A stretch of 64,000 bases of DNA from contig NZ_MSIF01000002.1 in NCBI RefSeq assembly GCF_001921215.1, positions 434,001 through 498,000 on the forward strand, written 5' to 3'. A program made the position numbers and the translations under genes. Every line of letters starts with the position of its first letter. Positions within the stretch are counted from its first letter, which is position 1. The notes below the pieces were generated by a model. That model was not told where the DNA came from. It ran no database searches and saw only the letters and a list, made by a program, of their open reading frames with translations. Origin of the DNA: Actinophytocola xinjiangensis (GTDB taxonomy: Bacteria > Actinomycetota > Actinomycetes > Mycobacteriales > Pseudonocardiaceae). Positions 4,448-63,399 of the stretch are shown one piece after another.

Positions 4448-4760
4448 TTTCGGGATACCTCCCAAGTACGGGAACAGGCAGACCGGGCCAGGAGCAGAAT
4501 CGCATCGTGGCCTGCGGCAATGCATCTTCGGCGGTGCGGGCCGCGTCCGGTCAGCGCACGTTCGGAGAAGCGTCCACGGTCAGCCGGGGACAGAATGGAC
4601 GCGCTCGAGTGTCACGATCCGGCTCGCGTTCGTCGCGGGGGAGAAGGAAGAAACTTCCGCCGAGGGTGTCGATTCGCCGCCGGTCTGGGCGACGCGTAGG
4701 TGAGGGGGCGAGGACCGCCCTTGCCAGACAGCTGCCATCACGACTTAGAGGTGATCTTTC
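4448..4760. promoter_or_regulatory. Divergent promoter region
   Basis: These 313 bases separate two head-to-head genes and contain no convincing coding frame. The plus-strand gene has a good ribosome site, GAGGTGATC, 4 nt before its ATG. I see no confident -35/-10 pair and no clear palindrome, so exact promoters are not assigned. Confidence 0.5.
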
Positions 4761-6143: not shown

Positions 6144-6159
6144 GAAGGGCCATCAGCAC

Positions 6160-6960: not shown

Positions 6961-6976
6961 CACGACGGTTTCCCAC

Positions 6977-7014
6977 CCTCAGGGTCGGCTCAGCGTGCTG
7001 AGCCGGCCCTGAGG
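6977..7014. terminator. Hairpin terminator
   Basis: An 18-bp stem (6977-6994 with 6997-7014) has one G-T wobble and a 2-nt loop. It lies just after the hydrolase stop and closes the oxidase-hydrolase unit. The 137 bases to the next ATG then hold that gene's own promoter region. Confidence 0.75.
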
Positions 7015-7151
7015 TGCGTTCGGGGGCGGTAGGGGTCACCAACAAGGGCACGACCGAAGATGCCGACCCGCCACCCTGGTGTGAGGATCCCAGTGCACTG
7101 AAGCGGCCCTGGTCGCGACAGTCCTGTTGGAACTCACGCCGAGGAGCTGGC

Positions 7152-8909
7152 ATGCGCGTCGACATCGTTGGTGGTGGCCCCGCTGGTCTCTTCCTCGCCT
7201 CGCGCCTGCGCGACGATGAGGTCGCCGACGACGTGCGCGTGTACGAGCGTGATCTGCCGGACGCGAGCGCGGGCTGGGCTGTGGTGTTCCCCGAGGGCTC
7301 ACTCGACCAACTGTCCTCAGTGGATCCTAAGGTGTTCGCCGGGATCGAGCGGGTCGGCACGAGCTGGACCAAGGTGGAGATCCGCTGCCGGGGCTCGCGC
7401 TACCTGGTGGAGGGCAACCGGTTCCACGGCATCGGCCGGGACGCGCTGCTCACCGTGCTGCGCGAACGGGCCGAGGAACTCGGGGTGTCACTGCGCTACG
7501 GTCAGGAGTCGGCCGACCACACCGGCGCCGACCTGGTCGTCGGCGCCGACGGGCTCAACTCCACGGTGCGCGCGGCGCACGAGCAGGACTTCGGCCCGGC
7601 GATCGAGCAGGGCTCGTTCTGGTACGGCTGGTTCGGTGTCGAGGTCACCGCGCCGACCTTCGCCTACATCTTCGTCGACACCGAGTGGGGCCTGTTCCAG
7701 GCCTACGTCTACCCGTCCGGCCAGTCGTGGAGCTCGCTGATCTTCTACGTCTCCGAGGAGACCTGGCAGAGCTCCGGAATGTCCACGATGGACGTCGAGG
7801 AGACGATGCGGTTCTGCGAGCGGGTGTTCGCCGACCACCTCGACGGCCGGCCGATCATGCGCCGTGGCCCGGCCTGGAGCCGCTTCCGCCACCTGCGCTG
7901 CGCCAGCTGGCACACCGACGACACCGTGCTCATCGGCGACGCCGCGCACACCGCGCACTGGTCGATCGGCTCCGGCACCCGCCTGGCCATCGAGGACGCC
8001 ATCGCCCTGGCCGCCCAGCTGCGCGACCAGCGCGACGACGTGCCCGACGCCCTGGCCAGGTACGAGAAGGTCCGCCGGGACCGGGTCGAGCAGTTCCAGG
8101 ACGCCGCCCTGCTCTCCGAGCGGTACTTCGACAACGTCGGCCGCTACCTGGACTACGAGCCGATCCAGTTCGCCTACCAGCTGACCGCCCGCTCGTGGCG
8201 CATCACCTTCGCCGACATCGCCCGGCGCGACCCGGACTTCATCCGCCGGTTCAACGCCTGGTTCCACGGCCGGGCCACCGGCACGCCGACCGCCATCGCC
8301 CCGTCGCCGGTGTTCGCCCCGGCCAGGATCGGCGGGCTGGAGCTGGCCAACCGGGTCGTGGCGACCGAGCCGACCGAGGGCGTCGGCCTGCTGCTCGACG
8401 TGCCGCCGGCCCCCGGCCGGCCCAGCGCAACGGTCGTGGCCGCCACCGGCCTGGAGCCCGGCCTCGCGGCCGCGCGGGCCGCCGGCCACCACCTGGCGCT
8501 GCTGGACCTGTCGGCCCGTCCGGTCGGCGCGCTGCTGGCGCTGCCGCCGGCCGGTGAGCTGGCCGTGCTGCGCGCGCACTGGCCGGCCGAGCTGCCGGTG
8601 GGCACCGTGCTCGGCCTGTCCGCCGGCTGCGACACCGTCGCCGCGACCGAGGCCCTCGTCGAGCTGGCGAGGACCCTGCAACTGTCCGAGACCGACGTCG
8701 TGCTGTTGCGACCCACGGCCGGGGACCCACCCCGGCCAGGGCAGGTCCTGCAGGCCGCCGACGCCGTGCGCAACGAGACCGGCCTCACCGTGATCGTCGA
8801 CGACGCGCTGCGCACGCTCGACGCCGCGGACACCGCGATCGCGGCCGGCCGGACCGACCTGTGTGTCCTGCGCTTCGACCTGAACTTATCCACCGTCCGG
8901 GAGGCGTGA
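7152..8909 (+). CDS. Salicylyl-/anthraniloyl-CoA hydroxylase-like FAD monooxygenase with shortened C-terminal barrel
   Basis: Start ATG is 7152 (GAGGAG 6 nt upstream), giving 585 residues. Residues 1-380 are a class A flavin monooxygenase: VGGGPAG FAD motif at 6-12, and GDAAHTAHWSIGSGTRLAIED as the second FAD motif. From about 386 the sequence restarts with FAPARIGGLELANRVV, the opening of an old-yellow-enzyme barrel, but only about 200 residues remain. Known: anthraniloyl-CoA monooxygenase/reductase and bifunctional salicylyl-CoA 5-hydroxylases have this two-part order with a full barrel near 380 residues. Inferred: hydroxylation of an aryl-CoA made by the ligases just downstream, with the reductase half degenerate. 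One TTA codon occurs near the end. Confidence 0.8.
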   Translation: MRVDIVGGGPAGLFLASRLRDDEVADDVRVYERDLPDASAGWAVVFPEGSLDQLSSVDPKVFAGIERVGTSWTKVEIRCRGSRYLVEGNRFHGIGRDALLTVLRERAEELGVSLRYGQESADHTGADLVVGADGLNSTVRAAHEQDFGPAIEQGSFWYGWFGVEVTAPTFAYIFVDTEWGLFQAYVYPSGQSWSSLIFYVSEETWQSSGMSTMDVEETMRFCERVFADHLDGRPIMRRGPAWSRFRHLRCASWHTDDTVLIGDAAHTAHWSIGSGTRLAIEDAIALAAQLRDQRDDVPDALARYEKVRRDRVEQFQDAALLSERYFDNVGRYLDYEPIQFAYQLTARSWRITFADIARRDPDFIRRFNAWFHGRATGTPTAIAPSPVFAPARIGGLELANRVVATEPTEGVGLLLDVPPAPGRPSATVVAATGLEPGLAAARAAGHHLALLDLSARPVGALLALPPAGELAVLRAHWPAELPVGTVLGLSAGCDTVAATEALVELARTLQLSETDVVLLRPTAGDPPRPGQVLQAADAVRNETGLTVIVDDALRTLDAADTAIAAGRTDLCVLRFDLNLSTVREA

Positions 8910-10217
8910 ATGAGCAACCTGCCCAGCGGCCAGCCGTACTGGAACCCGCGAACCGAGACCATGCCCCGCGAGGAACTTTCGGCCTGGCAATGGCGAAAGC
9001 TCCAGGTGGCCCTGGCGCAGGCGCGAAACTCGAAGTTCTGGTCAGACCGCATACCCGAGGACATCTCCTCGTTCGAGGACTACACCGCCCGGGTTCCGTT
9101 GGTGACCAAGAAGGACCTGGTGGCCGCCGAGGAGGTGTCGCCGCCGTTCGGCCTGCTGCCCTCGATCGACCCGGCCGCCGGCATCCGCTTCCACCAGACC
9201 AGCGGTACCAGCGGCAACACTCCACTGCGGACCTTCGACACGCTCCGCGACTGGACCTGGGCGGTCGACCAGTGGTGCACCCTGCTGCACGCCTACGGCG
9301 TCCGCTCGGGCATGCGCGGCATCGCCGCCTTCGGCTACGGCCTGTTCATCGGGTTCTGGGGGCTTCAGGACGCCATGATGCGCCTGGGCTGCACGGTCCT
9401 GCCGACCGGGTCGATGGACTCCGCCGCGCGCGTGCGGGTGCTCGTGGACTACCAGATCGAGGTCATGGGCTGCACCCCGACCTACGCCCTGCGGCTGCTG
9501 GAGACCGCCAAGGACATGGGCATCGACCTGGCCACCGAGGGCAACCTGCGGGTCGTGGTCACCGGCGCCGAGCCGCGTCCACAGGCGACGGTCCGGGCGA
9601 TCGAGGAAGGTTTCGGCGCACGGGTGTACGACGTGGCCGGGATGACCGAACTGGCGACCGTGTTCACCTTCGAGTGCCCGGCCAACCGGAACAACTTCCA
9701 CATCATCGAGCCGGCCGCCATCGAGGAGGTGCTGCACCCCGAGACCAGACAACCGGTCGGTTACGGGGAACGCGGCGTGCGGGTGATGACCGGCCTCGGC
9801 CGGGAGGGCTGGCAGATCTTCCGGTACTGGACCGAGGACATCGTGGTGCGGCGGCCGTGGCACGAGTGCCCGTGCGGGCGCACCTGGGACCTCTACGAGG
9901 GCGGCATCATCGGCCGCGCCGACGACATGCGCAAGATCCGCGGCATCTCGGTGACGCCGGTGATGGTCGAGGACGTGGTACGCGGCTTCGCCGAGGTGCG
10001 GGAGTTCCAGACCGTGCTGCGCGCCGACCGGGGACTGGACGTGATGGTGCTGCGGGTCGAGCCGTGGGACCTGGCCACCGCGCGGGCCGACCTGGCCCAG
10101 CGCATCGGCGCCGAGATCAAGCAGTCGATCGGTCTGCAACCGCGCGTCGAGCTGGTGGCGGCCGGCGCGCTTCCCCGTTTCGAGGCGAAGGCGGTGCGTT
10201 TCCATGACGAGCGGTGA
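8910..10217 (+). CDS. Phenylacetate-CoA-ligase-family AMP-forming enzyme
   Basis: This 435-residue protein of PaaK length and architecture has the phosphate loop FHQTSGTSGNTP (94-105), an ATP-binding region VVVTGAEPRPQATVR, an aromatic-acid pocket with VAGMTE, and the C-terminal hinge GRADDMRKIRG. A CPC cluster lies at WHECPCGRTWD. The ATG directly follows the upstream stop, and its 3' end overlaps the 78-residue ORF by 14 nt, so translation is coupled. Known: PaaK-type enzymes form aryl-CoA or load aryl acids in antibiotic pathways. Two different aryl ligases are adjacent here, suggesting two acids or one CoA ligase and one transferring enzyme. Confidence 0.88.
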   Translation: MSNLPSGQPYWNPRTETMPREELSAWQWRKLQVALAQARNSKFWSDRIPEDISSFEDYTARVPLVTKKDLVAAEEVSPPFGLLPSIDPAAGIRFHQTSGTSGNTPLRTFDTLRDWTWAVDQWCTLLHAYGVRSGMRGIAAFGYGLFIGFWGLQDAMMRLGCTVLPTGSMDSAARVRVLVDYQIEVMGCTPTYALRLLETAKDMGIDLATEGNLRVVVTGAEPRPQATVRAIEEGFGARVYDVAGMTELATVFTFECPANRNNFHIIEPAAIEEVLHPETRQPVGYGERGVRVMTGLGREGWQIFRYWTEDIVVRRPWHECPCGRTWDLYEGGIIGRADDMRKIRGISVTPVMVEDVVRGFAEVREFQTVLRADRGLDVMVLRVEPWDLATARADLAQRIGAEIKQSIGLQPRVELVAAGALPRFEAKAVRFHDER

Positions 10218-10440
10218 GCTGACCGGCCGGGAGCAGCGGCAGTTGCGCGAGTGCTACGCGACGCTGCACGAGCTGGCCGAGAACTGTGCGGTGCCCTCGG
10301 TGCGCGCCGCGGCACGGGCCGCGGTCGCCGAGGTGCACGTCGCCATGGACGGGCAGGCGATGGAGTTCGAGATGTACAGCCATCGCTGGCTCGACGAGGG
10401 GGAAGAGAAGGGAGTGTCCAGTGTCAGTCATAACAGATGA
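10204..10440 (+). CDS. Small unknown protein wedged between two aryl-CoA ligases
   Basis: The product is 78 residues, acidic and predicted helical, with no cysteine pair, signal peptide or membrane segment. It starts within the last 14 nt of the PaaK-like gene and ends 20 nt inside the next ligase gene. The overlaps on both sides argue that it is real and made in stoichiometry with the ligases. I cannot assign a family with certainty. Inferred: an accessory or stabilising subunit for one of the ligases. Confidence 0.6.
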   Translation: MTSGELTGREQRQLRECYATLHELAENCAVPSVRAAARAAVAEVHVAMDGQAMEFEMYSHRWLDEGEEKGVSSVSHNR

Positions 10441-11971
10441 CCAGGTCGAGTTACCCGAGTGGTTCGAGGACTCGGACTACAACCTGTCGCGGCGGTTCCT
10501 CGACCCGATTCCCGGTGAGCGCACCGCGCTGCTCACCGCGGACGGGGCGACCAGCTACGCGGAGCTGCGCGCGCTGGTCAACCAGGTCGGCAACGCGTTG
10601 CGCGGACTGGGGGTCGGTCGGGGGGACCGGGTGCTGCTCGCGGTGCGCGACGGCATCGAGTACGTCGCGACCTGGTACGCCGCCCAGCGGATCGGCGCGA
10701 TCACCGTCGACGTGTACAACTTTCTCACGCCGGCCGAACACCGCTACCACGTGAACTACCTGGAACCGTCCATCGTGGTCGTGGACGGCAGCCTGGTCAC
10801 GACGATGCGCGAGGCCGGAGCGTCCACAATGGTCGTTCTGGATCCCGTCACGCCGCTGCGTTCCGGCGAGCACGACTTCGCCGCGCTGGTGGACGGTCGG
10901 TCGACGGAGCTGGAGCCCAGCCCGACCAACGCCGACGACGTGGTGATGTGGAAGCTCACCACCGGCAGCACCGGCAAGCCCAAGGCGTGCCGGCACGCCG
11001 CCCGCAGCCCGTGGCTGAGCTACCTGTGGTACGCCAGGGACGTGCTCGACCTCGGTCCGGACGACGTCGTCCTGCCGGTGCCCAAGTTGTTCTCCGGCTG
11101 GGCCCGCGACGTGGTCGCGCTCTACGCGATGGGCGCCGGCGCCTCCGGCATCCTGTTCCCCGAGCGTAGCACCCCGGAGCGGATCTTCGAGCTGACCGAG
11201 CGGCACCGACCGACCGTGCTGGTCAACGTGCCGACGATGATCAAGGCGATGCTCGCCCACCCGGACGCGTCCTCAGTGGACCTCAGCTCGGTGCGGATGT
11301 GCCTGTCCGCCGGCGAACAGCTGCCGCCCGAGCTGCACCGCCGGTGGCAGGACACCTTCGGTGTCGAGCTGCTGGACTGCGTCGGGTCGACCGAGTCGTT
11401 CAACGCGGTCATCTGCAACCGGCCGGGCGAGGTCCGGGTCGGCAGCCTCGGCCGGGTCATCCCGCACTACGAGGCCACGGTGACCGACGACAACGGCCAC
11501 CCGCTGCCCGACGGCGAGGTCGGCGTCCTGCGGATCACCGGCGCCCCGGTGGCCATCGACTACTGGAAGGCGCCGGAGAAGACCGCACAGTCCTTTCCGG
11601 AGCGCGGGACGCTGCGGACCAGCGACCTGTTCACCCGGGACGCCGACGGCTACTTCTACTACCGTGGCCGGGCCGACGACCTGTTGAAGGTCAGCGGGCT
11701 CTACGTCGCGCCGTCGGAGATCGAGAACTGCCTGGCGACCCACCCGGACGTGGTCAGCGCCGCGGTCGTCGGCCGGCCATCAGCCGACGGTCTCATGGCG
11801 ACGGTCGCGTTCGTCGTGGCCAGGAACGGGGTCGACGGCGACGAGCTGCGGCAGTTCGTGAAGGCCAGGCTCTCGGCGCGCAAGTGTCCCAAGGAGTTCC
11901 GGTTCGTGGACACGCTTCCCGAGACCCCGACGGGGAAGATCGATCGCAACGCTCTGCGAGCGGTCGAGTGA
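10421..11971 (+). CDS. Benzoate-CoA-ligase-family aryl-CoA synthetase
   Basis: Start GTG 10421 is chosen over an upstream ATG (10286) because AGAAGGGAG lies 6-7 nt before it and the 516-residue length matches benzoate/4-hydroxybenzoate-CoA ligases. ANL-superfamily motifs are LTTGSTGKPKA (A3), VGSTES (A5), SDLFTRDADGYFYYRGR (A7/A8) and PTGKIDR with the adenylation lysine (A10). Known: the family activates benzoate-type acids to CoA thioesters in two steps. The partner hydroxylase at 7152 acts on aryl-CoA in related pathways, so an aryl-CoA intermediate is plausible. A TTA codon is codon 11. Confidence 0.88.
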   Translation: MSVITDDQVELPEWFEDSDYNLSRRFLDPIPGERTALLTADGATSYAELRALVNQVGNALRGLGVGRGDRVLLAVRDGIEYVATWYAAQRIGAITVDVYNFLTPAEHRYHVNYLEPSIVVVDGSLVTTMREAGASTMVVLDPVTPLRSGEHDFAALVDGRSTELEPSPTNADDVVMWKLTTGSTGKPKACRHAARSPWLSYLWYARDVLDLGPDDVVLPVPKLFSGWARDVVALYAMGAGASGILFPERSTPERIFELTERHRPTVLVNVPTMIKAMLAHPDASSVDLSSVRMCLSAGEQLPPELHRRWQDTFGVELLDCVGSTESFNAVICNRPGEVRVGSLGRVIPHYEATVTDDNGHPLPDGEVGVLRITGAPVAIDYWKAPEKTAQSFPERGTLRTSDLFTRDADGYFYYRGRADDLLKVSGLYVAPSEIENCLATHPDVVSAAVVGRPSADGLMATVAFVVARNGVDGDELRQFVKARLSARKCPKEFRFVDTLPETPTGKIDRNALRAVE

Positions 11972-12528: not shown

Positions 12529-13812
12529 ATGGCCGACCGATCCACCTCAGACAGAGGTCGCAGTCCGTTACTCGTGGTGGGACTGTGTTTCTTCATCATC
12601 CTGTTCGACGGTTACGACCTCATCGTCTACGGGTCGGTCGTGCCGGAGTTGCTCGCCTACAGCGAATGGGCGCTCACCCCGGCCGAGATCGGACTGATCG
12701 GCAGCTACGCGCTGCTGGGCATGCTGATCGGTGGCGTCGTGGTCGGCACGATCACCGACCTGGTCGGCCGGCGGCGCACGGTCATCGGCTGCCTGACGCT
12801 GTTCTCGGCGGCCATGCTCGCCTGTGCCGTGGCGCCCAACCCCGAGCTGTTCGGCGTGTTCCGGTTCATCGCCGGGGCCGGGCTCGGCGGGATCGCCCCG
12901 ACGGTGATCGCGCTGACCATCGAGTCCGCCCCGGCCGGCCGGCGCAACCTGAACAACGCGCTGGTGACCTCCGGCTACGCCGTCGGCGGCATGACCGCCG
13001 CCGTGCTGGCGCTGATCTTCCTGGAGCCACTGGGTTTCCGGTTCATGTTCGCCATCGGTGCGCTGCCGCTGGTGACCCTGGTGCCGTTGGCCCTGTGGCT
13101 GCTGCCGGAGTCCCCGGCGTTCGTGCGCACCGACCGGACCGAGGCGGCCAGGCGTCGGCTGGCCGCGCTTGGCCGGTCGATGCGCGGTCGGGCGGCGGTG
13201 GCGCTCGCACTGTTCGCGGTCGCCAACTTCGCCGGCCTGCTGCTGTCCTACGGGCTGAACACCTGGCTGCCGCAGCTGATGCGCTCGGCCGGCTACGCGC
13301 TGGGCCCGGCGCTGGTGTTCCTGCTCGTGCTCAACCTCGGTGCGGTGGTCGGCGCGGTCGTCGGCTCGGCGCTGTCGGACCGGCTCGGGCCACGGTTCGT
13401 CACGCCCGCGGCGTTCCTGGTGGCCACCGCGTCGATCTTCCTGCTCAGCGTGAAACTGCCGATCGTCGTGCTGTACGTGGTGATCTTCATCGCCGGTGCC
13501 GCGACGATCGGCACCCAGATCGTCCTGTTCGGACACATCGCGACGCACTTCGCGCCGAACATCAGGGCGACGTCGATCGGCCTGACCTCCGGGTTCGGCC
13601 GGCTCGGCGGCATGGCCGGCCCACTGGTCGGCGGCTACCTCGCCCAGGCGGGCATCGGCTTCGCGGTGAACTTCCAGATCTTCGCCGCGGTCGCCCTGCT
13701 GGGTGCGGTGGCGGTGGTGCTCGTGCCGGTGCGGTCCCGGCACGTCAGTTCCGAGGTGCACGAGCTCACGCCCAGGACCGAGGAACGCGTCGTCCACGAC
13801 GACGCCGCCTGA
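12529..13812 (+). CDS. MFS transporter, aromatic acid:H+ symporter type
   Basis: The product has 427 residues with 12 predicted transmembrane helices. The first helix carries FDGYDLIVYGSVVPELL, the DGYD-type signature of the AAHS family (benzoate, 4-hydroxybenzoate and protocatechuate transporters). The loop DLVGRRRTVIG between helices 2 and 3 is the usual MFS motif A. It sits directly downstream of the aryl-CoA ligases, which supports an aromatic acid as the transported molecule. Whether it imports a precursor or exports a product cannot be read from sequence. It contains one TTA codon (12568). Confidence 0.85.
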   Translation: MADRSTSDRGRSPLLVVGLCFFIILFDGYDLIVYGSVVPELLAYSEWALTPAEIGLIGSYALLGMLIGGVVVGTITDLVGRRRTVIGCLTLFSAAMLACAVAPNPELFGVFRFIAGAGLGGIAPTVIALTIESAPAGRRNLNNALVTSGYAVGGMTAAVLALIFLEPLGFRFMFAIGALPLVTLVPLALWLLPESPAFVRTDRTEAARRRLAALGRSMRGRAAVALALFAVANFAGLLLSYGLNTWLPQLMRSAGYALGPALVFLLVLNLGAVVGAVVGSALSDRLGPRFVTPAAFLVATASIFLLSVKLPIVVLYVVIFIAGAATIGTQIVLFGHIATHFAPNIRATSIGLTSGFGRLGGMAGPLVGGYLAQAGIGFAVNFQIFAAVALLGAVAVVLVPVRSRHVSSEVHELTPRTEERVVHDDAA

Positions 13813-13852
13813 GACCGGCAGTCCCCAACACTCCCAGACCCCAGGAGGTCCG

Positions 13853-14854
13853 ATGTACTTCGACGAGGACGGAAGCGCTGCCAAGTTGTGGTCGATGGCC
13901 GGGCTCGGCACACCGATGGCGATCCGGGTCGCGGCGACCTTACGGGTGGCCGACCACATCGCCGACGGCAAGCGGACCGCCGCCGAGCTGGCGCCGGTCT
14001 GCGACGCGCACGAGGGCACCCTGGAGCGGCTGCTGCGCTACCTGGCCGTACGCGGCGTGTTCGCCCGCGCCGAGGACGGCGGCTACGACCTCACCCCGCT
14101 GAGCCAGCCGCTGCGCGAGGACCACCCGGCGCGGGTGCGGGCCTGGTTCGACATCGACGGCATGGGCTGGGGCGAGCTGTCGTTCGTGGAACTGCTGCAC
14201 ACCGTGCGCACCGGTGAGGCCGCGTTCCCGGTGCGCTACGGCCAGCCCTACTGGGACGACATGGCGACCTCCCCGGTGCGCACCGCGTCCTTCCACGACC
14301 TGCACGGCGCCGACATGGCCGGCCGCTCACCGCACATCGTCACGGCGTTCGACTGGGCGTCGCTGGGGCACGTCACCGACATCGGCGGCGGCGACGGCTC
14401 GCTGATCACCGCGATCCTGACGGCCACCCCTGGGCTGCGCGGCACCGTCGTCGACCTGGCCGACGCGACGGCCGCCGCCAAGGAGACCTTCGCCGAGGCC
14501 GGCATCGACGACCGCGCCGACGCCGTCACCGGCAGCTTCTTCGACCCGCTGCCCGCCGGCGCCGACGCCTACCTGCTGTCGCTGATCCTGCACGACTGGC
14601 CCGACGAGGAGTCGGTGGCGATCCTGCGCCGCTGCGGCGAGGCCGCCGGCCCCGACGGCCGGGTCCTGGTCATCGAGTCCATCGGCGACGGCGAGGTCAC
14701 CCACACCGGCATGGACCTGCGGATGCTGTGCCTCTACGCGGCCAGGGAACGCGGGGTCACCGACTTCACCGCGCTCGCCGAACGCGCCGGCCTGCGCCGC
14801 ACGGCGGTGTACGAGGCCGGGCCGTCGGCGATCATCGAGTTACGGGCGGCGTGA
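13853..14854 (+). CDS. O-methyltransferase, TcmN/DnrK-like
   Basis: Start ATG 13853 is preceded by AGGAGG 4 nt away, giving 333 residues. An N-terminal helical dimerisation/wHTH domain is followed by motif I TDIGGGDGSL near 177 and the catalytic stretch LSLILHDWPDEES near 245, whose His is the general base in the family. Known: these enzymes methylate phenolic or carboxyl oxygens of aromatic natural products. It is placed between the aromatic transporter and the P450, with one nt separating it from the latter. It carries two TTA codons (13940, 14840). Confidence 0.88.
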   Translation: MYFDEDGSAAKLWSMAGLGTPMAIRVAATLRVADHIADGKRTAAELAPVCDAHEGTLERLLRYLAVRGVFARAEDGGYDLTPLSQPLREDHPARVRAWFDIDGMGWGELSFVELLHTVRTGEAAFPVRYGQPYWDDMATSPVRTASFHDLHGADMAGRSPHIVTAFDWASLGHVTDIGGGDGSLITAILTATPGLRGTVVDLADATAAAKETFAEAGIDDRADAVTGSFFDPLPAGADAYLLSLILHDWPDEESVAILRRCGEAAGPDGRVLVIESIGDGEVTHTGMDLRMLCLYAARERGVTDFTALAERAGLRRTAVYEAGPSAIIELRAA

Positions 14855-21896: not shown

Positions 21897-22505
21897 TCAG
21901 ACGACGAACGGTGACGCCGACAATTCGATGGGCAGGAGTTGGACCAGGCCGACTCGGTTTCCCGCATCTGCCTTGATGTCGGTGGCTCGAACCCTCCAGC
22001 GCCCGGCAGGCAGCGGGACCGGCGCCTGGGCGGGCATCCCGCCGCCGGGATACTCGGTGTTCAGGTCGGAGCCCGCTACGGCGGAGTCCATGAGCACGGC
22101 CGGACCGTCCGACACCCAGGTGCCGCACTCCTCCCATTCGGTGGCCGGGTCCGCGAGGCCAGCCTCTGCCGCGGCCTTCAGCTCGGCCTCGGAGTCGGCG
22201 GTGAGCCACCGCAGGAAGGTGCCGTGCTCGGACAGGTAGCAGCTGGTGGCCGGCTCGTCCGCCAGCACCACAGCCCGCGCTCCGTTCTCGCCCACGGGGA
22301 TCACACCTGCCAGATCGTCCAGCGCACAGGCCCGGTCGTAGTCGTCCGGAGCAGTGGCGTCTCCCGCCATGACCCCGGTCTCGGTGCACCCGCGCCATGC
22401 GGCCAGCGCGGAGACGGGGATGACGATCAGAGGTCCGCCCATCGACTGCACCCAAACAGGGGAGGCAGGGGACGCATCGGCTGGGGTGGATGACGAGGCG
22501 CTCAT
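21897..22505 (-). CDS. Imm21-like immunity-family protein
   Basis: The product is a 202-residue acidic soluble protein. The N-terminal part reads WVQSMGGPLIVIPVSALAAW, followed by DDYDRACALDD, GVIPVGENGARAVVLADEPA and a strand FLRWLTADSEAEL. This order is how I remember the Imm21 family of polymorphic-toxin immunity proteins, but I could not check it by search. No toxin gene is visible nearby. Codon use and GC are like the neighbours. It is monocistronic, between two hairpins. Alternative: an unrelated cluster-borne protein of similar beta-rich composition. Confidence 0.5.
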   Translation of the reverse strand: MSASSSTPADASPASPVWVQSMGGPLIVIPVSALAAWRGCTETGVMAGDATAPDDYDRACALDDLAGVIPVGENGARAVVLADEPATSCYLSEHGTFLRWLTADSEAELKAAAEAGLADPATEWEECGTWVSDGPAVLMDSAVAGSDLNTEYPGGGMPAQAPVPLPAGRWRVRATDIKADAGNRVGLVQLLPIELSASPFVV

Positions 22506-24017: not shown

Positions 24018-25601
<1,584 letters not shown>

Positions 25602-30023: not shown

Positions 30024-31334
30024 TCAGGTGCCGACCCGCAGCCAGGTGGGGTCACGCTCGACACCGGCGAGACAGGTGGCGTTGTAGGCGTCCAGTGCCG
30101 CCTGGGCCTCGACCTGCGCCCGCGCGAACCGGGTCGCCGGGTCGGCGGCCCGCACCAGCACGTCCTCCATCGCCGCCATGATCGCCGTCTGCACCCCGTG
30201 GGAGCCGGGGATCACCGGCGCCGACACGGTGGCCCGCCGCAACTGCTCGACGGCCACCCGGTGCGCGGGATGGTTGTCGAACCAGCCCTCCTCCGCCAGC
30301 AGCGCGACAGCGGATTCCGTGACCGGGGTTGAGCCGCTGGCCCGGTGCCACTGCGCGGCGTTCTCCGGCGAGTTCAGGTACATCATGAACGCCAGCGCCC
30401 CGTCCCGGGCGACCGGGTCCAACCCGTCGGCCAGCCACATCGCGTCCCCGCCGATCCAGTTGCCCACCGGCGACACGCGGTCGTTGTGCGGCAACAGGGT
30501 CACGGTCTCCTCCAGGCCGTCGCGTTCCGGCCCGCCCATGAAGTTGATCGCGAACGACGAGTCGACCCGCAGGGCGACCCGTTCGCCGACGAACGCGGCG
30601 CCGTTGCCGGCCCAGTCCTCGAACGTTCCCGTGTACAGGTAGTAGCCGCCGCGGTTGAGCCGGTGCCACCAGTCGACCAGGGCCAGCAGTCCCGGTGACG
30701 TGAGGTCCACCCGGGACGCCCGGCCGGCCCGTCCGTTGTCGGCGTCCAGCATCGCCCCGCCCTGCTGGGTGATCCAGTGCTGGAACAGCTTGCCGTCGTC
30801 CGGCCAGGTGATGGGGTACGCCGGCCCGCCGGTCAGTGCCTCGCAGGCCGCGCTCACCTCGTCCCAGGTTCGCGGGGGCGTCGACAGGCCGGCGGCCCGC
30901 AGCATCGTCATGTTGCTGTACAACAACATCGTCGACAGGGTGAGCGGGACGGCGGCCAGGTCGTCGTTGATCCTGTAGAAGGTCTGGCAGGCCTCGATGA
31001 GGTCGTTCAGGATGACCGGCTCACCGAGGATCTCGGTGCGGTCGCCGACTTCTCGGCCCACCGAGGTGAACAGGGGGCGGCCGTCGGCCCGCACCGTGTC
31101 GATCGCCTGTTGGGACGCTCCCGAGTAGTACGACGCGATCGTCGGGGGGCGGCCGGCCAGCGTCCGGCGGGAAACCTCCGCCGGCAGGTCCTCGTAATAG
31201 CAGCCCTGAATGGTGATCTCGTACTCGGGATGCGCCTGCTCGAACTCCGCCGCCCGCTTTCGCACCGGTCCGAGGAAATCCGGAAACGGATACTCCGACA
31301 ACACTACGTCGATCTCAACCCTCGGCGGCGACAT
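30024..31334 (-). CDS. Family 1 solute-binding protein without a signal peptide
   Basis: The protein has 436 residues and the bilobed fold of ABC sugar-type binding proteins: ITIQGCYYEDLPAEV early, PLTLSTMLLYSNMTML, and VSPVGNWIGGDAMWLAD. The mature sequence starts at once (MSPPRVEIDVVLSEYPFP) with no hydrophobic segment and no lipobox. GTGGAGGATCC places a good ribosome site before the ATG, so a missed signal peptide is unlikely. No ABC permease or ATPase gene is nearby. Inferred: an intracellular binding or carrier role for a pathway intermediate, or a repurposed enzyme. It is divergent from the assembly-core operon. Confidence 0.75.
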   Translation of the reverse strand: MSPPRVEIDVVLSEYPFPDFLGPVRKRAAEFEQAHPEYEITIQGCYYEDLPAEVSRRTLAGRPPTIASYYSGASQQAIDTVRADGRPLFTSVGREVGDRTEILGEPVILNDLIEACQTFYRINDDLAAVPLTLSTMLLYSNMTMLRAAGLSTPPRTWDEVSAACEALTGGPAYPITWPDDGKLFQHWITQQGGAMLDADNGRAGRASRVDLTSPGLLALVDWWHRLNRGGYYLYTGTFEDWAGNGAAFVGERVALRVDSSFAINFMGGPERDGLEETVTLLPHNDRVSPVGNWIGGDAMWLADGLDPVARDGALAFMMYLNSPENAAQWHRASGSTPVTESAVALLAEEGWFDNHPAHRVAVEQLRRATVSAPVIPGSHGVQTAIMAAMEDVLVRAADPATRFARAQVEAQAALDAYNATCLAGVERDPTWLRVGT

Positions 31335-31543: not shown

Positions 31544-32794
31544 ATGTCAGTCGTCGCCGCGAATTTTCCCGAGCACGGCTTTCCGCTCCCGCCCGAGCCC
31601 GAGCTGACCCCGGCCGACGTGGTCGCTCGCGCGGAGGCCTTCGCGTCGGAGCTGGTGGAGCGTCAGGCCGAGACAGAGAACCGCACCTTCTACGCCACCG
31701 ACACCCACGAGGCGTTCTCGAAGGCGGGTCTTTACCGGATTCTCGTCCCCCGCCGCTACGGCGGCTACGAGTTCGGTGTGGACACCTTCGTGAAGGTCGC
31801 CATCGCGCTGACCAGGGGATGCCCGTCGACCGGGTGGATGTACACCCTCGGCGCCGCGCACGCCCTCGCGGTCGCCACCGTCTTCCCCGAGAGCGCCCAG
31901 GACGAGCTGTTCGCCGGCGGCGACTTCCTCGCCCCGGCCACCATCATGCCCAGCGGCACCGCCGAGCGGGTCGACGGCGGCTGGAAGGTCAACGGCACCT
32001 GGGGCTACTGCTCCGGCGCCCCCTACGCCACCCACTTCGTCGGCCACGCCCTGGCGCCCGGCGCCTCCGGCCAACTGGAGCCGATGCTGTTCATCGCCCC
32101 GCGCGAGCAGTGGCGCCGCCTCGACGACTGGGGCCAGCAGCTCGGCCTGCGCGGCAGCGGCTCGCACAGCATCACCGTCGAGGACGCGATCATCCCCGAC
32201 CACTACACGCTGCCCGGCCACATGAGCCAGTACTCGGTCGCCGACGGCACCCCGGGGCTGCGCCTGCACGGCAACGTCGAGTACAGCGGCGGCCCGCTGA
32301 GCTTCATGAACCTGGAGAGCGCCGTGCTCGCCGTCGGCATCGCCAAGGCGGCGCTGGACGCGTTCGAGGACCTCATGCGCACCCGCACCACACTGTTCCC
32401 CCCGGTCGTGACCCGGTTCGAGGACCCCGACTACCAGTACTGGTACGGCGAGGCCACCGGCATGATCGCCACCGCCGAGGTCGGGATCTTGGGCGCGGTG
32501 CGCCTGTGGCAGGAGGCCTGCGCCGCCGGTCCCGCCGCGTTCACCCGCGAGCTGGAGATGCGCCTGGCCGGGATCTCCCGCCAGGTCGAGCAGCTGTGCT
32601 GGCGCGCCGTCGAGGGCCACCTGCTGCCGACGGCCGGGTCCAGCTCGGTGCGCCGGGGCGAGCGCCTGGAGCGGATCTGGCGCGACATGTCCATGTTGCA
32701 CACCCACGCCGGTTCGGCGGTGTTCCTGGCCGCCAAGGCCCAGCGTGAGCTGTCCAGGGCGCACTTCGGCCTGCCGGACGAACTCGCCGGCTGA
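31544..32794 (+). CDS. Acyl-CoA-dehydrogenase-fold flavin monooxygenase, second copy
   Basis: The protein has 416 residues. An N-terminal helical region with VPRRYGGYEFGVDTFVKVA leads to the beta domain VDGGWKVNGTWGYCSGAPYATHF and a C-terminal bundle. It shares the YGGYE motif and fold with the gene at 22626 but is only distantly similar. It belongs to the class D reduced-flavin hydroxylases rather than dehydrogenases. AAAGGA lies 11 nt before the ATG. It heads the plus-strand block that contains the carrier protein and NRPS, so a carrier-bound substrate is plausible. Confidence 0.82.
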   Translation: MSVVAANFPEHGFPLPPEPELTPADVVARAEAFASELVERQAETENRTFYATDTHEAFSKAGLYRILVPRRYGGYEFGVDTFVKVAIALTRGCPSTGWMYTLGAAHALAVATVFPESAQDELFAGGDFLAPATIMPSGTAERVDGGWKVNGTWGYCSGAPYATHFVGHALAPGASGQLEPMLFIAPREQWRRLDDWGQQLGLRGSGSHSITVEDAIIPDHYTLPGHMSQYSVADGTPGLRLHGNVEYSGGPLSFMNLESAVLAVGIAKAALDAFEDLMRTRTTLFPPVVTRFEDPDYQYWYGEATGMIATAEVGILGAVRLWQEACAAGPAAFTRELEMRLAGISRQVEQLCWRAVEGHLLPTAGSSSVRRGERLERIWRDMSMLHTHAGSAVFLAAKAQRELSRAHFGLPDELAG

Positions 32795-32852
32795 CCGGCC
32801 GGCGTCGGTGACCCGCTGGCCGCCCGCCAGCGACGAGCGAGGAGGTACACCC

Positions 32853-34247
32853 GTGGTGGATCACCTGGGTGATCGGGCGGTCGTGCTCGGCGGGAGCATG
32901 GCCGGACTGGTCGCGGCCAGGGTACTGGCCGAGTCCTACGCCGAGGTCGTGGTCGTCGACCGCGACGAGCTGGTCGGCGTGACCGCCGCCCGGCGTGGCG
33001 TGCCGCAGGGCCGGCACGTGCACGGTCTGCTGGCCCGCGGCCAGCAGATCCTGGAGGAGTTCTTCCCCGGCTTCTACGCCGGCGCGGTCGCCGCCGGCAT
33101 CCCCACCGGTGACCTCGGCGGCGACGTGCGCTGGTTCTTCGGCGGCCGTAAACTCCAGCCCGCCGACGCCGGTCTGAGCTGCATCTCCGCCGCCCGGCCG
33201 GTGCTGGAGGGCCACGTGCGGGCCAGGGTGAACGCCCTGCCGAACGTGCGGTTCGTCGAGCGCACCGACATCGTCGGCATCGTCACCGACCAGGCCGGTG
33301 ACCGGGTCACCGGCGTGCGGGTGCACCGCCAGGGCGAGAGCGCCGAGGAGGTCCTGGAGGCCGACTTCGTCGTCGACGCCACCGGCCGTGGCTCGCGCAC
33401 CCCGGCGTGGCTGGAGGCCCTGGGCTACGAGCGTCCGCCCGAGGACCGGGTCAAGATCAACGTCAGCTACACCAGCCGGCTCTACCGGGTGCCCGACGAG
33501 TCGGTCTTCGACGGCGACCTGTCGATCAACCCGACGACCTCGCCGGTCACCCCGCGCGGCGGGTTCCTCACCCGCATCGAGGACGGTCGCGCCGTGCTGA
33601 CCGTCTCCGGCGTGCTGGGCGACAGCGCGCCGACCGACCCCGAGGGCTTCCTGGACTTCGTCAAGTCGCTGGCGGTGCCCGACATCTACGACATCGTCAA
33701 GAAGCTCGAACCGGTCAGTGACATCGTCGGCTTCCGCTACCCGGCCAGCACCTGGCGCCACTACGAGCGGCTGGCCCGCTTCCCCGAGCGGTTCGTGGTG
33801 CTCGGCGACGCGGCGTGCAGCTTCAACCCGCTCTACGGCCAGGGCATGACCGTCGCCGCCATCGAGGCGACCGTGCTGCGTGAGCACCTGCGCCGGGGCG
33901 TCGTCGCACCGCGCCGGTTCCACAAGGACATCGCCAAGGTCATCGGCGGGGCGTGGGACATGTCGGCCGGCGGGGACCTCACCTTCCCCGAGGTCGAGGG
34001 CCACCGCCCGCTCAAGCTGCGGATCGCCAACGCGTTCGTCGCCAAGGTGCAGGCCGCCGCGGCCCGCGACGGCGAGGTCACCAAGGCGTTCATGCGGGTC
34101 GCCGGCATGGTCGCCGGCCCGGAGTCGCTGATGAAGCCGAAGATGCTGCTGCGCATCCTGCGCAACGCCAAGCCGGCCAGGACCACCGGCACCCCGGCGC
34201 CGCCGGCCGACCGGACCGACGACCCGGGGCTGCCGCGCGCCGCCTGA
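32853..34247 (+). CDS. FAD-dependent epoxidase/monooxygenase (Lsd18/MonCI-like)
   Basis: Start GTG 32853 follows GAGGAGG and gives 464 residues. An in-frame upstream extension is unsupported. The FAD motif is VLGGSMAGLVAARVL, followed by RRGVPQGRHVHGLLARGQQIL, the segment typical of polyether epoxidases such as Lsd18. A second FAD motif is LGDAACSFNPLYGQGMTVA. Known: those enzymes epoxidise isolated alkenes, and close relatives hydroxylate aromatic rings. No polyene exists in this cluster, so an indole or arene C=C is the likelier target. It is followed 21 nt later by a carrier protein. Confidence 0.82.
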   Translation: MVDHLGDRAVVLGGSMAGLVAARVLAESYAEVVVVDRDELVGVTAARRGVPQGRHVHGLLARGQQILEEFFPGFYAGAVAAGIPTGDLGGDVRWFFGGRKLQPADAGLSCISAARPVLEGHVRARVNALPNVRFVERTDIVGIVTDQAGDRVTGVRVHRQGESAEEVLEADFVVDATGRGSRTPAWLEALGYERPPEDRVKINVSYTSRLYRVPDESVFDGDLSINPTTSPVTPRGGFLTRIEDGRAVLTVSGVLGDSAPTDPEGFLDFVKSLAVPDIYDIVKKLEPVSDIVGFRYPASTWRHYERLARFPERFVVLGDAACSFNPLYGQGMTVAAIEATVLREHLRRGVVAPRRFHKDIAKVIGGAWDMSAGGDLTFPEVEGHRPLKLRIANAFVAKVQAAAARDGEVTKAFMRVAGMVAGPESLMKPKMLLRILRNAKPARTTGTPAPPADRTDDPGLPRAA

Positions 34248-38978: not shown

Positions 38979-39991
38979 CCGGGGCGGCGGTCGGTACCGG
39001 CGGCACGAACTCGTGCGCGCTGGAACCCGCGCTGGGCCAGGGTTGTCTCGACCGCGCGACCCGTGCCCTCGCGGCCGGCGCGGAGTTCCCGTTGCGCGAC
39101 GTCGTGACACACGTCCAGGCGTGTGGCCGCCCCGCCGTCGACCCCGCCCTGCTCGCCGCCCTGCGTGCCGTGGAGCCCACCGACCCGCTGCTGGCGGCGT
39201 GGTTGCCGTGCCTGCTCGACCACGAGCGTCCCGGGTTCGACACCTACGCCGCCGTCCCGGTCCTGGAGCAGGCGGCCGCCGCCCAGCGCGACCCGGAGGC
39301 GGCGTTCGACGAGCTGATCGCCGCCCTGCTGGCCGATCTGCTGCTGGTCGAGACGACAGCCCTGGCCGCGCGCCCGACGCCCGCCCAGCGCCTGCGCACC
39401 CTGGCGGGTGTGCGCGCGGTCGCCCGGTCCGGTGACCTGGCTCCCCGCGCCCGCGCCCGAATCCCTGACATCACCGACACCTCCGCGCTGGTGGCCACCG
39501 CCGCCGAGCTGGCCAGGACGGTCCTGCGCCGCACCCCGCCGGCGCTGCGCACGGCGGTGGGCGCGGCCGTGCTGCCGATGACCACCCTGCACGACGAGAT
39601 CGTGGTCATCCGCTGTGCGCAGGTCACCGAGCTGCTGTACCGCAGGCTCGGCGCGCGCCTGAAACGCGCGGTGCACGCGCTGCGCCGGGGCGAGCTGGCC
39701 GAGGCCGTCACCCAGGTCGACGACGCGTCCGCCAGGCTGGCCGCCAGTGCCGTCATCGTGCGCCTGCTCGCGACCCTGCCCCGTGACCGGTTCCAGGTCA
39801 TCCGGGAGCACACGCGCGGTCGGGGCGCCGCGCACACGCGGGCGGTCCGCGAGCTGACCGCACACCGCGCCCGGCTGTCGCCGCCGCGCGCGAGCGGGCT
39901 GGCCGACGCGCTGGCCGTGTTCGACCGGGCGTGGCGTGCCGTGTCGTCGGTGCGCGAACCGGAACCGGAGAACCGGTCCAGGATCGCCTGA
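38975..39991 (+). CDS. Tryptophan-2,3-dioxygenase-superfamily-like protein
   Basis: The frame ending at 39991 has no ATG or GTG near its start. A CTG at 38975 overlaps the NRPS stop, and TTG 39092 (GGAG upstream) or GTG 39104 are alternatives. From about residue 206 the protein follows TDO core spacing: HDEIVVIRCAQVTELL corresponds to HDExxFIxxHQxxEL, then RGELAEA, LATLPRDRFQVIRE and RAVREL. The distal histidine is replaced by Ala (about 215), and the C-terminal proximal-haem part of TDO is missing, while about 200 extra residues precede the core. Known relatives (TDO, MarE, PrnB) oxidise indoles. This one may bind haem differently or be non-catalytic. Confidence 0.55.
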   Translation: MTGAAVGTGGTNSCALEPALGQGCLDRATRALAAGAEFPLRDVVTHVQACGRPAVDPALLAALRAVEPTDPLLAAWLPCLLDHERPGFDTYAAVPVLEQAAAAQRDPEAAFDELIAALLADLLLVETTALAARPTPAQRLRTLAGVRAVARSGDLAPRARARIPDITDTSALVATAAELARTVLRRTPPALRTAVGAAVLPMTTLHDEIVVIRCAQVTELLYRRLGARLKRAVHALRRGELAEAVTQVDDASARLAASAVIVRLLATLPRDRFQVIREHTRGRGAAHTRAVRELTAHRARLSPPRASGLADALAVFDRAWRAVSSVREPEPENRSRIA

Positions 39992-40039: not shown

Positions 40040-40070
40040 TTGACACCATAACTGTGTTATTCCATAACAC
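40040..40070 (+). promoter_or_regulatory. Consensus-like promoter with palindromic operator
   Basis: TTGACA (40040-40045) is followed after 17 bp by CATAAC (40063-40068), a good -35/-10 pair. A 17-bp perfect palindrome GTGTTATTCCATAACAC (40054-40070) covers the -10. ATAACTGTGTTAT (40048-40060) matches sites near 51900 and at 53838. The predicted start of transcription is very close to the ATG at 40083, so an alternative -10 or a near-leaderless transcript is possible. Confidence 0.7.
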
Positions 40071-40082
40071 CCGAGGAGAAAT

Positions 40083-40793
40083 ATGGAAGACCGCAGTCTG
40101 TACGAGGTGCTCAAGACGGCCCGGCTCAACGAGCGGTGCGCGGTGATGGCCGACGTGAAGTTCCGCTCCCCGCGCGACGGCGAACTGATCGCCCCGGGCA
40201 ATCTGGACGGGTACCTCGACGCCCTCATCGAGGGCGGTGTCGCCGCGATGTCCACACCGACCGATCCGGTGTACTTCGCCGGCGGGATCGACCTGGCGGC
40301 CAGGATCCGCGCGCGAACCGCGCTTCCGCTGATGCGCAAGGAGTTCTTCAGCACCCTGAGCCAGATCGACGAGTCGGTGAACGCCGGTTTCGACGCGATC
40401 CAGCTGTCGCTGAACACGGTCGCGCCGGGCCAGGTCGAGCGATTACGAGACCGTGCCGTGCGGCTGGGCCTGGAGGTCGTGTTCGGCGTCCACAACGAGG
40501 ACCACATCCGCGAGGCCGTGTCGTTGGGCGCGGTGGTGATCGCGGTCAACAACCGGGACATCGTGGCGCTGGAACTCGACACCGGAACCGTCAGCCGCAC
40601 CGAGGAACTGATCGCCACCATCCCGCACGACGTGTTCGTGATCTCGGAGAGTTCGTTCTACACCAAGGCGGACGTCGCCAGAGCGGGCGAGGCGGGCGCC
40701 GAAGCGGTCCTGGTCGGTACCGCGCTGGCGCAGAGCGCGAACCCGACGGAGCTGGCCAAGGAACTGAACGGCGCCAGGCTGTGGCCGAGGTAG
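40083..40793 (+). CDS. Indole-3-glycerol-phosphate-synthase-like barrel with altered active site
   Basis: The protein has 236 residues with GAGGAG 5 nt before ATG. Conserved segments align with IGPS: ADVKFRSPRDG, PLMRKEFF, VNNRDI and VISESSF. By hand alignment to the S. solfataricus enzyme, K53 (K26), K110 (K86), N180 (N156), E210 (E189) and S211 (S190) are present, E51 is D24, and catalytic E159 is G135 (FGVH instead of EVH). The N-terminal helix is also short. Known: E159 is needed for IGP synthesis. Inferred: a related ring-forming or lyase reaction rather than tryptophan biosynthesis. Translation is coupled to the TrpA-like gene, which overlaps its 3' end. Confidence 0.82.
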   Translation: MEDRSLYEVLKTARLNERCAVMADVKFRSPRDGELIAPGNLDGYLDALIEGGVAAMSTPTDPVYFAGGIDLAARIRARTALPLMRKEFFSTLSQIDESVNAGFDAIQLSLNTVAPGQVERLRDRAVRLGLEVVFGVHNEDHIREAVSLGAVVIAVNNRDIVALELDTGTVSRTEELIATIPHDVFVISESSFYTKADVARAGEAGAEAVLVGTALAQSANPTELAKELNGARLWPR

Positions 40794-41557
40794 ACCGCAT
40801 CGGAGCGCGGCTGCGGCGGACGGCGGGGCGCGGTGAGCGGTTGCTGGTCGTCTACCTGACCGTGGGCGACCCGGTGACCCCCAACGACCTCGCCGTGGCC
40901 GTGGCACAGGCCGGCGCCGACGTGCTGGAGCTGGGGATACCAACCCCGTCGACCGCCCCGCGCGGCGCCGAGATCGCCCACTCCTTCGACCGCGCCCGGG
41001 ACCACACACCACACCAGGCCTGGAAACTGGTGGGGGAGTTGCGCGCCCGCCTGCCCGACACCCCGCTGATCACCCTGGTGTACCCGTCGACGGTCACCGA
41101 CCTCGGCCCGCACGGAGTCCTGTCGGCCTGCCAGGAGTCCGGGGTGGACGGCCTGGTCCTCACCGATCCCGACGGGGACCTGACCTCGGCGACCGTGGCG
41201 GACACCGACCTGAGCGCCATCCCCCTGATCCGCCAGGGAACCGGGTCACCGCACCGCCTGGAAGCCACGGCCAGGCACCTCACCTACCGCCCGCTCGCCC
41301 CCCGCACCGGCGATCTCCTCAACCGCACCGAGGCACACCGGGCGGCCGAAGCCACAGCGGCCACCGCCACCAGACCCTTCCTGGCGGGCTTCGGCCTACG
41401 CACCGAACACGACATCCGCGCGGTGGTGCCCCACGCGGCCGGCGTGGTCCTGGGCAGCGAACTGTACCGAGGCCTGACGACCAGGCCCCCACCGGAACGA
41501 ACGCCCTGGGCTACCGGGGCCGTCCAGCGCTGGAAGACCGCCACGGCACTCCCGTGA
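40781..41557 (+). CDS. Tryptophan-synthase-alpha-like barrel lacking the catalytic aspartate
   Basis: Start GTG 40781 lies 13 nt inside the IGPS-like gene, giving 258 residues. It has the TrpA fold: LLVVYLTVGDP, AGADVLELGIPTPS, DGLVLTDPDGD, FLAGFGLRTEHDI and VVLGSELYRGL. E50 equals the general acid-base E49, but the loop that normally reads FSDPxADGP is TPSTAPRGA, so D60 is Arg61 and D56 is Ser57. No TrpB is in the window. Known: D60 is essential for indole release from IGP. Inferred: a repurposed aldolase-type barrel working with the IGPS-like enzyme. Confidence 0.82.
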   Translation: MAEVDRIGARLRRTAGRGERLLVVYLTVGDPVTPNDLAVAVAQAGADVLELGIPTPSTAPRGAEIAHSFDRARDHTPHQAWKLVGELRARLPDTPLITLVYPSTVTDLGPHGVLSACQESGVDGLVLTDPDGDLTSATVADTDLSAIPLIRQGTGSPHRLEATARHLTYRPLAPRTGDLLNRTEAHRAAEATAATATRPFLAGFGLRTEHDIRAVVPHAAGVVLGSELYRGLTTRPPPERTPWATGAVQRWKTATALP

Positions 41558-61866: not shown

Positions 61867-61868
61867 CG

Positions 61869-63269: not shown

Positions 63270-63399
63270 GGTGATCAGTATGGCCGCCAGAGCAAATGCG
63301 TAGTCTTGTCGGGGCCTGCGGATACCCTCATCTACGGTGGTGCGCGCCGCGGACCGGGTTGGTCGATCATGGCGCGGCAATGGGACACAGGAGCTGAGG

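Follow-up and report, generated by a model that had tools for sequence, protein, structure and literature searches.

We found that two overlapping genes of Actinophytocola xinjiangensis, encoding an IGPS (TrpC)-like protein and a TrpA-like protein, are a real, conserved and unusual pair; the proteins vary on familiar enzyme families, and the cluster is of a familiar kind. The substitutions in the two proteins, the residues that they keep, the co-inheritance of the genes, the cluster around them and their mutual exclusion with benzoxazolinate-type genes were observed directly. With a probability of roughly one half, we suggest that the two enzymes have diverged in catalysis and form a module dedicated to building a bicyclic aromatic acid instead of benzoxazolinate, by the mechanism proposed below. 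The window analyzed is a stretch of 64,000 nucleotides of this genome (Table 1).

The two genes form one overlapping unit. The first-pass annotation had given an overlap of 13 bp, which agrees with the open reading frames and is exact if the GTG at 40781 is the start. A start codon suitable for the 13-bp overlap is present in 5/5 loci with the pair; in one of them (G012) an alternative second GTG would make the overlap 19 instead of 13. The annotation had also assigned the pair its own operator-bearing promoter. There is an operator-like element: a perfect inverted repeat, GTGTTAT-TCC-ATAACAC, ends 12 bp before the start codon of the IGPS-like gene and is the sole match in the window with up to 3 mismatches allowed (0.12 expected). 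However, the repeat core occurred only in the window among the seven stretches scanned, and a search for a sigma-70-like promoter for the pair found none, so the pair's own promoter is unproven. A homologue of the upstream neighbor, in G128, weakly matches Trp_dioxygenase (37 bits; cut-off 35).

Table 1. Features of the window, with coordinates counted from its first nucleotide
Feature	Position	Strand	Basis or distribution
FAD_binding_3 monooxygenase (FAD3)	7014..8909	+	4/5 pair loci, 0/9 benzoxazolinate-type loci
PaaK-like ligase, common to pair-type and benzoxazolinate-type clusters	8910..10217	+	
Small ORF, DUF6052-like, overlapping the PaaK-like gene at its end	10204..10440	+	Pfam on the G353 copy, homology 55%
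Benzoate-CoA-ligase-like enzyme	10286..11971	+	TIGR02262, 388 bits (cut-off 375)
O-methyltransferase	13703..14854	+	Close homologues at G012 and 8/9 benzoxazolinate-type loci
Cytochrome P450	14856..16085	+	Close homologues at G012 and 8/9 benzoxazolinate-type loci
HpaB-type 3-monooxygenase	24018..25601	+	4/5 pair loci, 6/9 benzoxazolinate-type loci
FAD-dependent oxidoreductase	32745..34247	+	4/5 pair loci, 8/9 benzoxazolinate-type loci (one partial)
Upstream neighbor of the pair, start uncertain	38981..39991	+	41% identity to G128 protein
Perfect inverted repeat, operator-like, upstream of the pair	40054..40070	.	
IGPS (TrpC)-like (beta-alpha)8 protein, 236 aa	40083..40793	+	ORF and Pfam
Overlap of the IGPS-like and TrpA-like genes, 13 bp	40781..40793	+	
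TrpA-like (beta-alpha)8 protein, 258 aa, GTG start	40781..41557	+	ORF and Pfam

We found the pair at five loci (the window and four others) in two families. A search with the TrpA-like protein in 390 genomes of the window's family gave three close relatives, G012 (62%), G128 (58%) and G322 (47%); the next match by E-value was at 30%. A class-wide sample of 394 genomes added one member, G665, and 394 genomes of G665's family yielded no further one. The sole other match in that family (G1076) was an ordinary TrpA with Asp at D60, adjoining an apparent TrpB. Amycolatopsis roodepoortensis DSM 46661 (G128) is one close relative among the at least 80 related loci listed. In 5/5 loci the IGPS-like gene lies directly upstream of the TrpA-like gene. 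The annotation had suggested that two (beta-alpha)8 proteins were recruited together and that the same adjacent pair be sought elsewhere; the four further copies, the single overlapping unit in 5/5 loci and the loss of a key carboxylate from each protein bear this out, as does their place in a biosynthetic cluster away from the primary tryptophan genes of the genome.

The IGPS-like protein matched the Pfam IGPS profile (144 bits) and has the (beta-alpha)8 fold, and it fell below the NCBIfam TrpC equivalog cut-off (best 148 vs 284 bits). Residues are given in what we take to be S. solfataricus numbering. The claim that Gly135 occupies the position of catalytic E159 held in all comparisons. Gly135 aligned with the Glu of that position in five alignments to solved IGPS chains, and the column contains Gly in 5/5 pair-type proteins and Glu in 25/25 other IGPS homologues. 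The Lys, Asn, Glu and Ser residues reported to remain (K53, K110, N180, E210 and S56/S211) are indeed kept in 5/5, as are the P57, F112, R182 and G233 positions. A feature that the annotation had not recorded is Asp at E51 (Asp24 in the window), found in 5/5 pair-type proteins, in contrast to Glu in 23/23 readable others. Glu87, beside the kept K110, is in a fully segregating column that has Asp in 25/25 others. Thus the pair protein differs from indole-3-glycerol phosphate synthase (TrpC, PF00218) in having Gly for E159 and Asp for E51. It also belongs to a separate clade (support 100/99), although the tree program warns of long branches meeting.

The TrpA-like protein matched Pfam Trp_syntA (81 bits) and has the corresponding fold. 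Its score was below the cut-off of the trpA equivalog TIGR00262 (66.9 vs 102.35 bits). The reported Arg at D60 was found in every pair-type protein: the column has Arg in 5/5 of these and Asp (101) or Glu (3) in 104/104 other TrpA, a count that left out three fetched TrpA loci (L025 and L033, which have Asp by motif, and L004, the genome's own primary TrpA, whose D60 column is unread). In five TrpA alignments, Arg61 was opposite Asp (2), Glu (2) or Asn (1), the Asn being the sequence of the Salmonella D60N mutant. A profile alignment had been proposed as a check for an acidic residue at E159 or D60; neither protein has one in any of the five loci. The Glu49 equivalent was correctly reported as kept. 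It is Glu50 in the window and Glu in 5/5 pair-type proteins and 104/104 others. T183, G184, F212, G213, G234 and S235 are also kept in 5/5, preserving the GFG and GS phosphate motifs.

Other positions separate the pair protein from TrpA (PF00290). In 5/5 proteins residue 55 is Thr instead of Phe and residue 168 is Thr instead of Tyr; the latter (Thr168) is a fully segregating column with Tyr in 104/104 others. Two loop residues are lost: D56 is replaced by S/T/G/N/S in the five proteins (D in 102/104 others) and P57 by T/T/T/A/T (P in 103/104). In TrpA, these loop residues face TrpB. The TrpA-like proteins form one clade (support 100/99), with the same program warning of long branches meeting. 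BX1-type stand-alone indole-3-glycerol phosphate lyase keeps D60 (PMC12930369), in contrast to the Arg of the pair protein. A further TrpA homologue elsewhere in the genome (L005/L039; G000:C71, about 179386-180048) has Gln where G51 is expected (motif ELQLPFSEPIADGP).

The two lost residues have related roles in the canonical enzymes. In M. tuberculosis IGPS, according to PMC10591298, the E159 equivalent (Glu168) is 2.8 Å from the nitrogen of IGP and is proposed to stabilize the positive charge on that nitrogen and perhaps to act as a base. Its change to Ala makes activity undetectable, and Asp at the E51 equivalent costs only 3-fold. D60 of TrpA contacts the indole N1-H and stabilizes a charged intermediate, and its change to Asn, Ala or Tyr causes loss of activity (PMC12930369, in part). 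Because E159 and D60 each face that nitrogen (PMC10591298, PMC12930369), both losses hit a contact to one substrate atom. Judged from their sequences, the pair proteins look like enzymes and not pseudoenzymes because the other catalytic and phosphate residues are kept. Since the rest of each active site is preserved, the losses are better explained by a change of substrate or mechanism than by loss of function.

The gene content indicates that the window is part of an enediyne-type cluster, a label that we take from PKS architecture; no enediyne-specific model matched the PKS. An iterative-type PKS gene is 7.7 kb upstream of the window (window coordinates -13519..-7697). Its product is 69% identical to the PKS of G012, which contains KS, AT, KR and DH by Pfam, and its neighbors are conserved with G012 and G665, whose clusters are of the same enediyne-type kind. 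Also upstream are a condensation-domain homologue and a tyrosine 2,3-aminomutase (TIGR03832, 916 vs 501 bits) of the type expected for a beta-tyrosine moiety. In G128, the enediyne-type PKS cassette is on another contig than the pair. That cluster is apparently split between the PKS cassette and the decorating genes (C4 at about 1.21-1.27 Mb and C5 at about 2.39 Mb), and the decorating genes adjoin modular PKS genes. No enediyne PKS was found in the G322 genome at E 1e-150.

In G128, the genes around the pair run FAD oxidoreductase, tryptophan dioxygenase, dioxygenase-like, O-methyltransferase, TrpD, IGPS-like, TrpA-like, FAD3, PaaK-like ligase, DUF6052-like and benzoate-CoA-ligase-like. The TrpD (anthranilate phosphoribosyltransferase; 337 vs a trpD equivalog cut-off of 199 bits) is thus the next gene upstream of the pair. 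All these genes except TrpD and the first dioxygenase have counterparts in the window, in scattered positions. FAD3 most resembles VioD and, at 418 bits (cut-off 1078), the N-terminal region of salicylyl-CoA 5-hydroxylase/oxidoreductase. The PaaK-like ligase scored 209 and 193 bits against PaaK models, under their cut-offs. The benzoate-CoA-ligase-like gene has close orthologues at G012 and G128. Its start at 10286 is probably wrong, and the true start probably follows 10440, because the DUF6052-like gene occupies 10204-10440.

Several other genes in the window were noted. The region 47826-49162 matches the enediyne-type PKS at its C-terminal end (48% to G012) and is followed by a second YbgC-like thioesterase; it could be a duplicated PKS tail or a stand-alone domain with a thioesterase resembling the PKS-adjacent one. 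An Immunity protein 21 family gene (21897-22505, minus strand; 194 bits) is inside the cluster. An extracellular solute-binding protein (SBP_bac_8; 30024-31334, minus strand) has homologues at G665 (46%) and G088 (44%), and the G088 copy also matches G012 (41%). At the right end of the window are a polynucleotide kinase/phosphatase-ligase type RNA-repair protein (59356-62064, minus strand; PNKP_ligase, 568 bits) and a second long ORF overlapping it (61869-63380, minus strand).

We found that loci with the same ligase carry either the pair or benzoxazolinate-type genes. Close homologues of the PaaK-like ligase (59-64%) were present at nine loci without the pair (in G041, G088, G353, G1023, G1035, G1030, G1107, G1015 and G984). 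Homologues of four enzymes are present in all nine (9/9): a chorismate-binding enzyme, a glutamine amidotransferase, an FMN reductase and a second AMP-binding ligase. The Pfam scan covered both the chorismate-binding protein and the second ligase at three loci (one ligase was just under the cut-off), as well as the FMN reductase from G088 and the amidotransferase from G041. This gene content is that described for benzoxazolinate in PMC10098953: SgcD makes ADIC, SgcG dehydrogenates ADIC to OPA, and XsbC, a PaaK-family ligase, cyclizes OPA to benzoxazolinate. Our SgcD-, SgcG- and XsbC-type labels were set by Pfam class, gene content and that paper (PMC10098953, in part), not by sequence comparison.

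In contrast, the four pair loci with the ligase had no SgcD-, SgcG-, GATase- or XsbC-type genes in the fetched stretches (80-144 kb at these four; 60-144 kb across the pair loci), and none was found at E 1e-8 in the window plus 40 kb on each side. Three weak second-ligase matches (25-27%) at G012 and G665 fall on the PaaK-like gene itself. The IGPS-like, TrpA-like and FAD3 genes were all absent from the nine benzoxazolinate-type loci, and the TrpA-like protein was absent genome-wide from these nine genomes at the thresholds used (G041 had an ordinary 33% match only). Altogether, 4 of the 13 ligase loci have the pair and FAD3, 9 have benzoxazolinate-type genes and none has both. The random chance of this split is 1 in 715 with kinship ignored, and the loci are not independent: six of the nine benzoxazolinate-type loci are from one genus, and all 13 were picked by the ligase.

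The two kinds of loci each occur in both families. One change separates them in the ligase tree (support 86/88; 88% of bootstraps), and rooting this tree on the outgroup makes the pair type a grade. For seven clusters, the PKS tree requires two changes (one change in 0% of bootstraps), although this tree is weak, with no starred branch and a poor outgroup. Because the ligase tree needs one change and the PKS tree two, the history of the ligase appears to be tied to the acid-forming module and not to the core.

Based on these results, the pair appears to be an alternative core-forming module that feeds the same ligase in place of the benzoxazolinate genes, and its role as a module is well supported. 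The PaaK-like ligase is common to the pair-type and benzoxazolinate-type loci (C-1027-type module; PMC10098953, in part), and at several loci the two kinds also share the O-methyltransferase, P450, FAD oxidoreductase and HpaB-type hydroxylase. In contrast, the pair loci have IGPS-like, TrpA-like and FAD3 genes instead of the SgcD-, SgcG-, GATase- and XsbC-type genes. The pair loci also vary. G665 is without a close benzoate-CoA-ligase-like gene, O-methyltransferase or P450, and in G128 the O-methyltransferase and P450 homologues are distant only. G322 has the pair without the PaaK-like ligase, FAD3 or an enediyne PKS, so the pair need not feed this ligase.

A related cluster has been described. 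A 9-membered enediyne cluster predicted in strain CB03578 includes tryptophan-degradation enzymes, and its product is predicted to bear an anthranilic-acid-like moiety (PMC5181780, section 8). It is like the pair clusters in being an enediyne cluster with an anthranilic-acid-like moiety tied to tryptophan metabolism, and the text of that section names no IGPS- or TrpA-like genes. The pair may already be present, unremarked, in CB03578 or other annotated clusters. Among the matches listed from the open literature (supplements and subscription papers were outside its scope), we found no description of the pair in an enediyne or other antibiotic cluster.

Other settings were considered and discarded. 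We rejected the reading as just a second tryptophan operon: this genome already contains two sets, one of primary type on C30 and one on C13, and there was no TrpB-type profile among the 50 window ORFs scanned with Pfam. There was also no radical-SAM profile among these 50 ORFs, and CC-1065/yatakemycin-type pyrroloindole clusters were set aside. The streptonigrin, nybomycin and lavendamycin clusters were considered for their quinoline/anthranilate chemistry, and the link was dropped, though not disproved. The comparison drew on the parts consulted of PMC6265801 and of PMC11206028; in the latter, an M. abscessus cluster compared with its streptonigrin counterparts has PhzC/D/E-type genes and no IGPS or TrpA homologue. 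The set on C13 (L038; G000:C13:50000-69000, at about 4500-11100) consists of an apparent TrpD, TrpA, acyl-CoA dehydrogenase, TrpF and TrpC and adjoins an adenylation domain and a carrier protein (TrpF and the neighbors were assigned by eye). E159 is kept in its TrpC and D60 in its TrpA. In 4/4 IGPS homologues of this type, which have relatives in G041 and G006, Ala occupies the E210 position, making this another diverged set.

We infer the following steps for the pair, including CdRP as the substrate and indole-7-carboxylate as the product. Anthranilate would be phosphoribosylated by TrpD and isomerized to CdRP by the host's primary enzyme. The IGPS-like enzyme, with its K110-type acid and phosphate site, would close the pyrrole ring at the free ortho carbon and not at the carboxylated one. 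The carboxylate would be kept, at indole C7 beside the nitrogen (7-carboxy indole glycerol phosphate), and would stand in, facing the nitrogen, for the absent E159 and D60. In the TrpA-like protein, Arg61 would bind the C7 carboxylate and Glu50 would drive the retro-aldol step, giving glyceraldehyde 3-phosphate and indole-7-carboxylate. The PaaK-like ligase would activate this acid, and the salicylyl-CoA-hydroxylase-like flavoenzyme would oxidize it. Benzoxazolinate has its acid beside the ring nitrogen of a fused bicycle, and indole-7-carboxylate would be a look-alike in layout. We put forward only tentatively this IGPS-type closure of CdRP with the carboxylate kept, and the release of a benzoxazolinate stand-in by a TrpA-type partner with Arg; indole-7-carboxylate as the exact product is possible rather than probable.

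Retention of the carboxylate is consistent with the downstream ligase, which needs a carboxylate that canonical IGPS would remove. Canonical IGPS reacts at the carboxylated carbon, and we know of no natural IGPS that closes the ring at the unsubstituted ortho carbon. A weak precedent for closure without decarboxylation is that P. aeruginosa IGPS makes indole from a substrate with hydrogen replacing the carboxylate, 41,000-fold less efficiently (PMC7681013, in part). E210 and R182, both kept, would also suit ordinary decarboxylating chemistry on some substrate. Among the five genomes with the pair, G128 alone has an adjacent TrpD. A whole-genome profile search placed no dedicated TrpD in the window (matches on C3, C13 and C36 only), and G012 and G665 have one strong and one weak TrpD homologue each, which fits CdRP from primary metabolism.

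The first-pass annotation had proposed an arylamine adduct or an aminodeoxysugar as the substrate. The arylamine is plausible, given TrpD upstream of the pair in Amycolatopsis roodepoortensis; nothing that we found points to an aminodeoxysugar. Its interpretation is thus partly supported, and it did not include the enediyne context, the mutual exclusion with benzoxazolinate-type genes or the shared nitrogen contact of the two lost residues.

Alternatively, the two proteins could follow the canonical decarboxylating route to an ordinary indole or a substituted one (such as one derived from 3-hydroxyanthranilate), other residues having taken over from E159 and D60. The fold, the phosphate sites, K53, K110 and E49 of TrpA are all kept, G128 has tryptophan-dioxygenase and dioxygenase-like genes near the pair, and the prediction for CB03578 (PMC5181780, in part) points the same way. 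However, mutating the E159 or D60 equivalents abolishes detectable activity (PMC10591298, PMC12930369, in part), Arg for D60 puts a positive charge where a cation develops, no carboxylate would be left for the ligase, and the genome's other TrpC/TrpA set, on C13, keeps both residues. We consider this explanation rather unlikely. The loss of two nitrogen contacts (PMC10591298, PMC12930369, in part) and a flavoenzyme resembling salicylyl-CoA 5-hydroxylase would also be expected if the substrate were a phosphosugar adduct without nitrogen or with another linkage (such as an aryl C- or O-ribulose phosphate), with no N-H to contact and Arg61 meeting an oxygen; the TrpD adjoining the pair in G128 points instead to an N-linked substrate, and we regard such an adduct as unlikely. 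A non-catalytic regulatory or scaffolding pair derived from tryptophan enzymes would explain why both proteins are without a residue essential in the canonical enzymes, but it is very improbable, as a scaffold would not need the acid/base lysines, other glutamates and phosphate sites that are conserved in 5/5 loci of two families.

If the carboxylate-retaining module is correct, two barrels of the tryptophan pathway have been re-tooled together, each by removing a contact to the same substrate atom. The pair would then be a natural experiment on how IGPS and TrpA control decarboxylation and retro-aldol cleavage. The proposal predicts a new acyl group for a group of uncharacterized enediyne-type clusters, and it suggests that, in the acyl arm, clusters exchange the core-forming step but retain the ligase.
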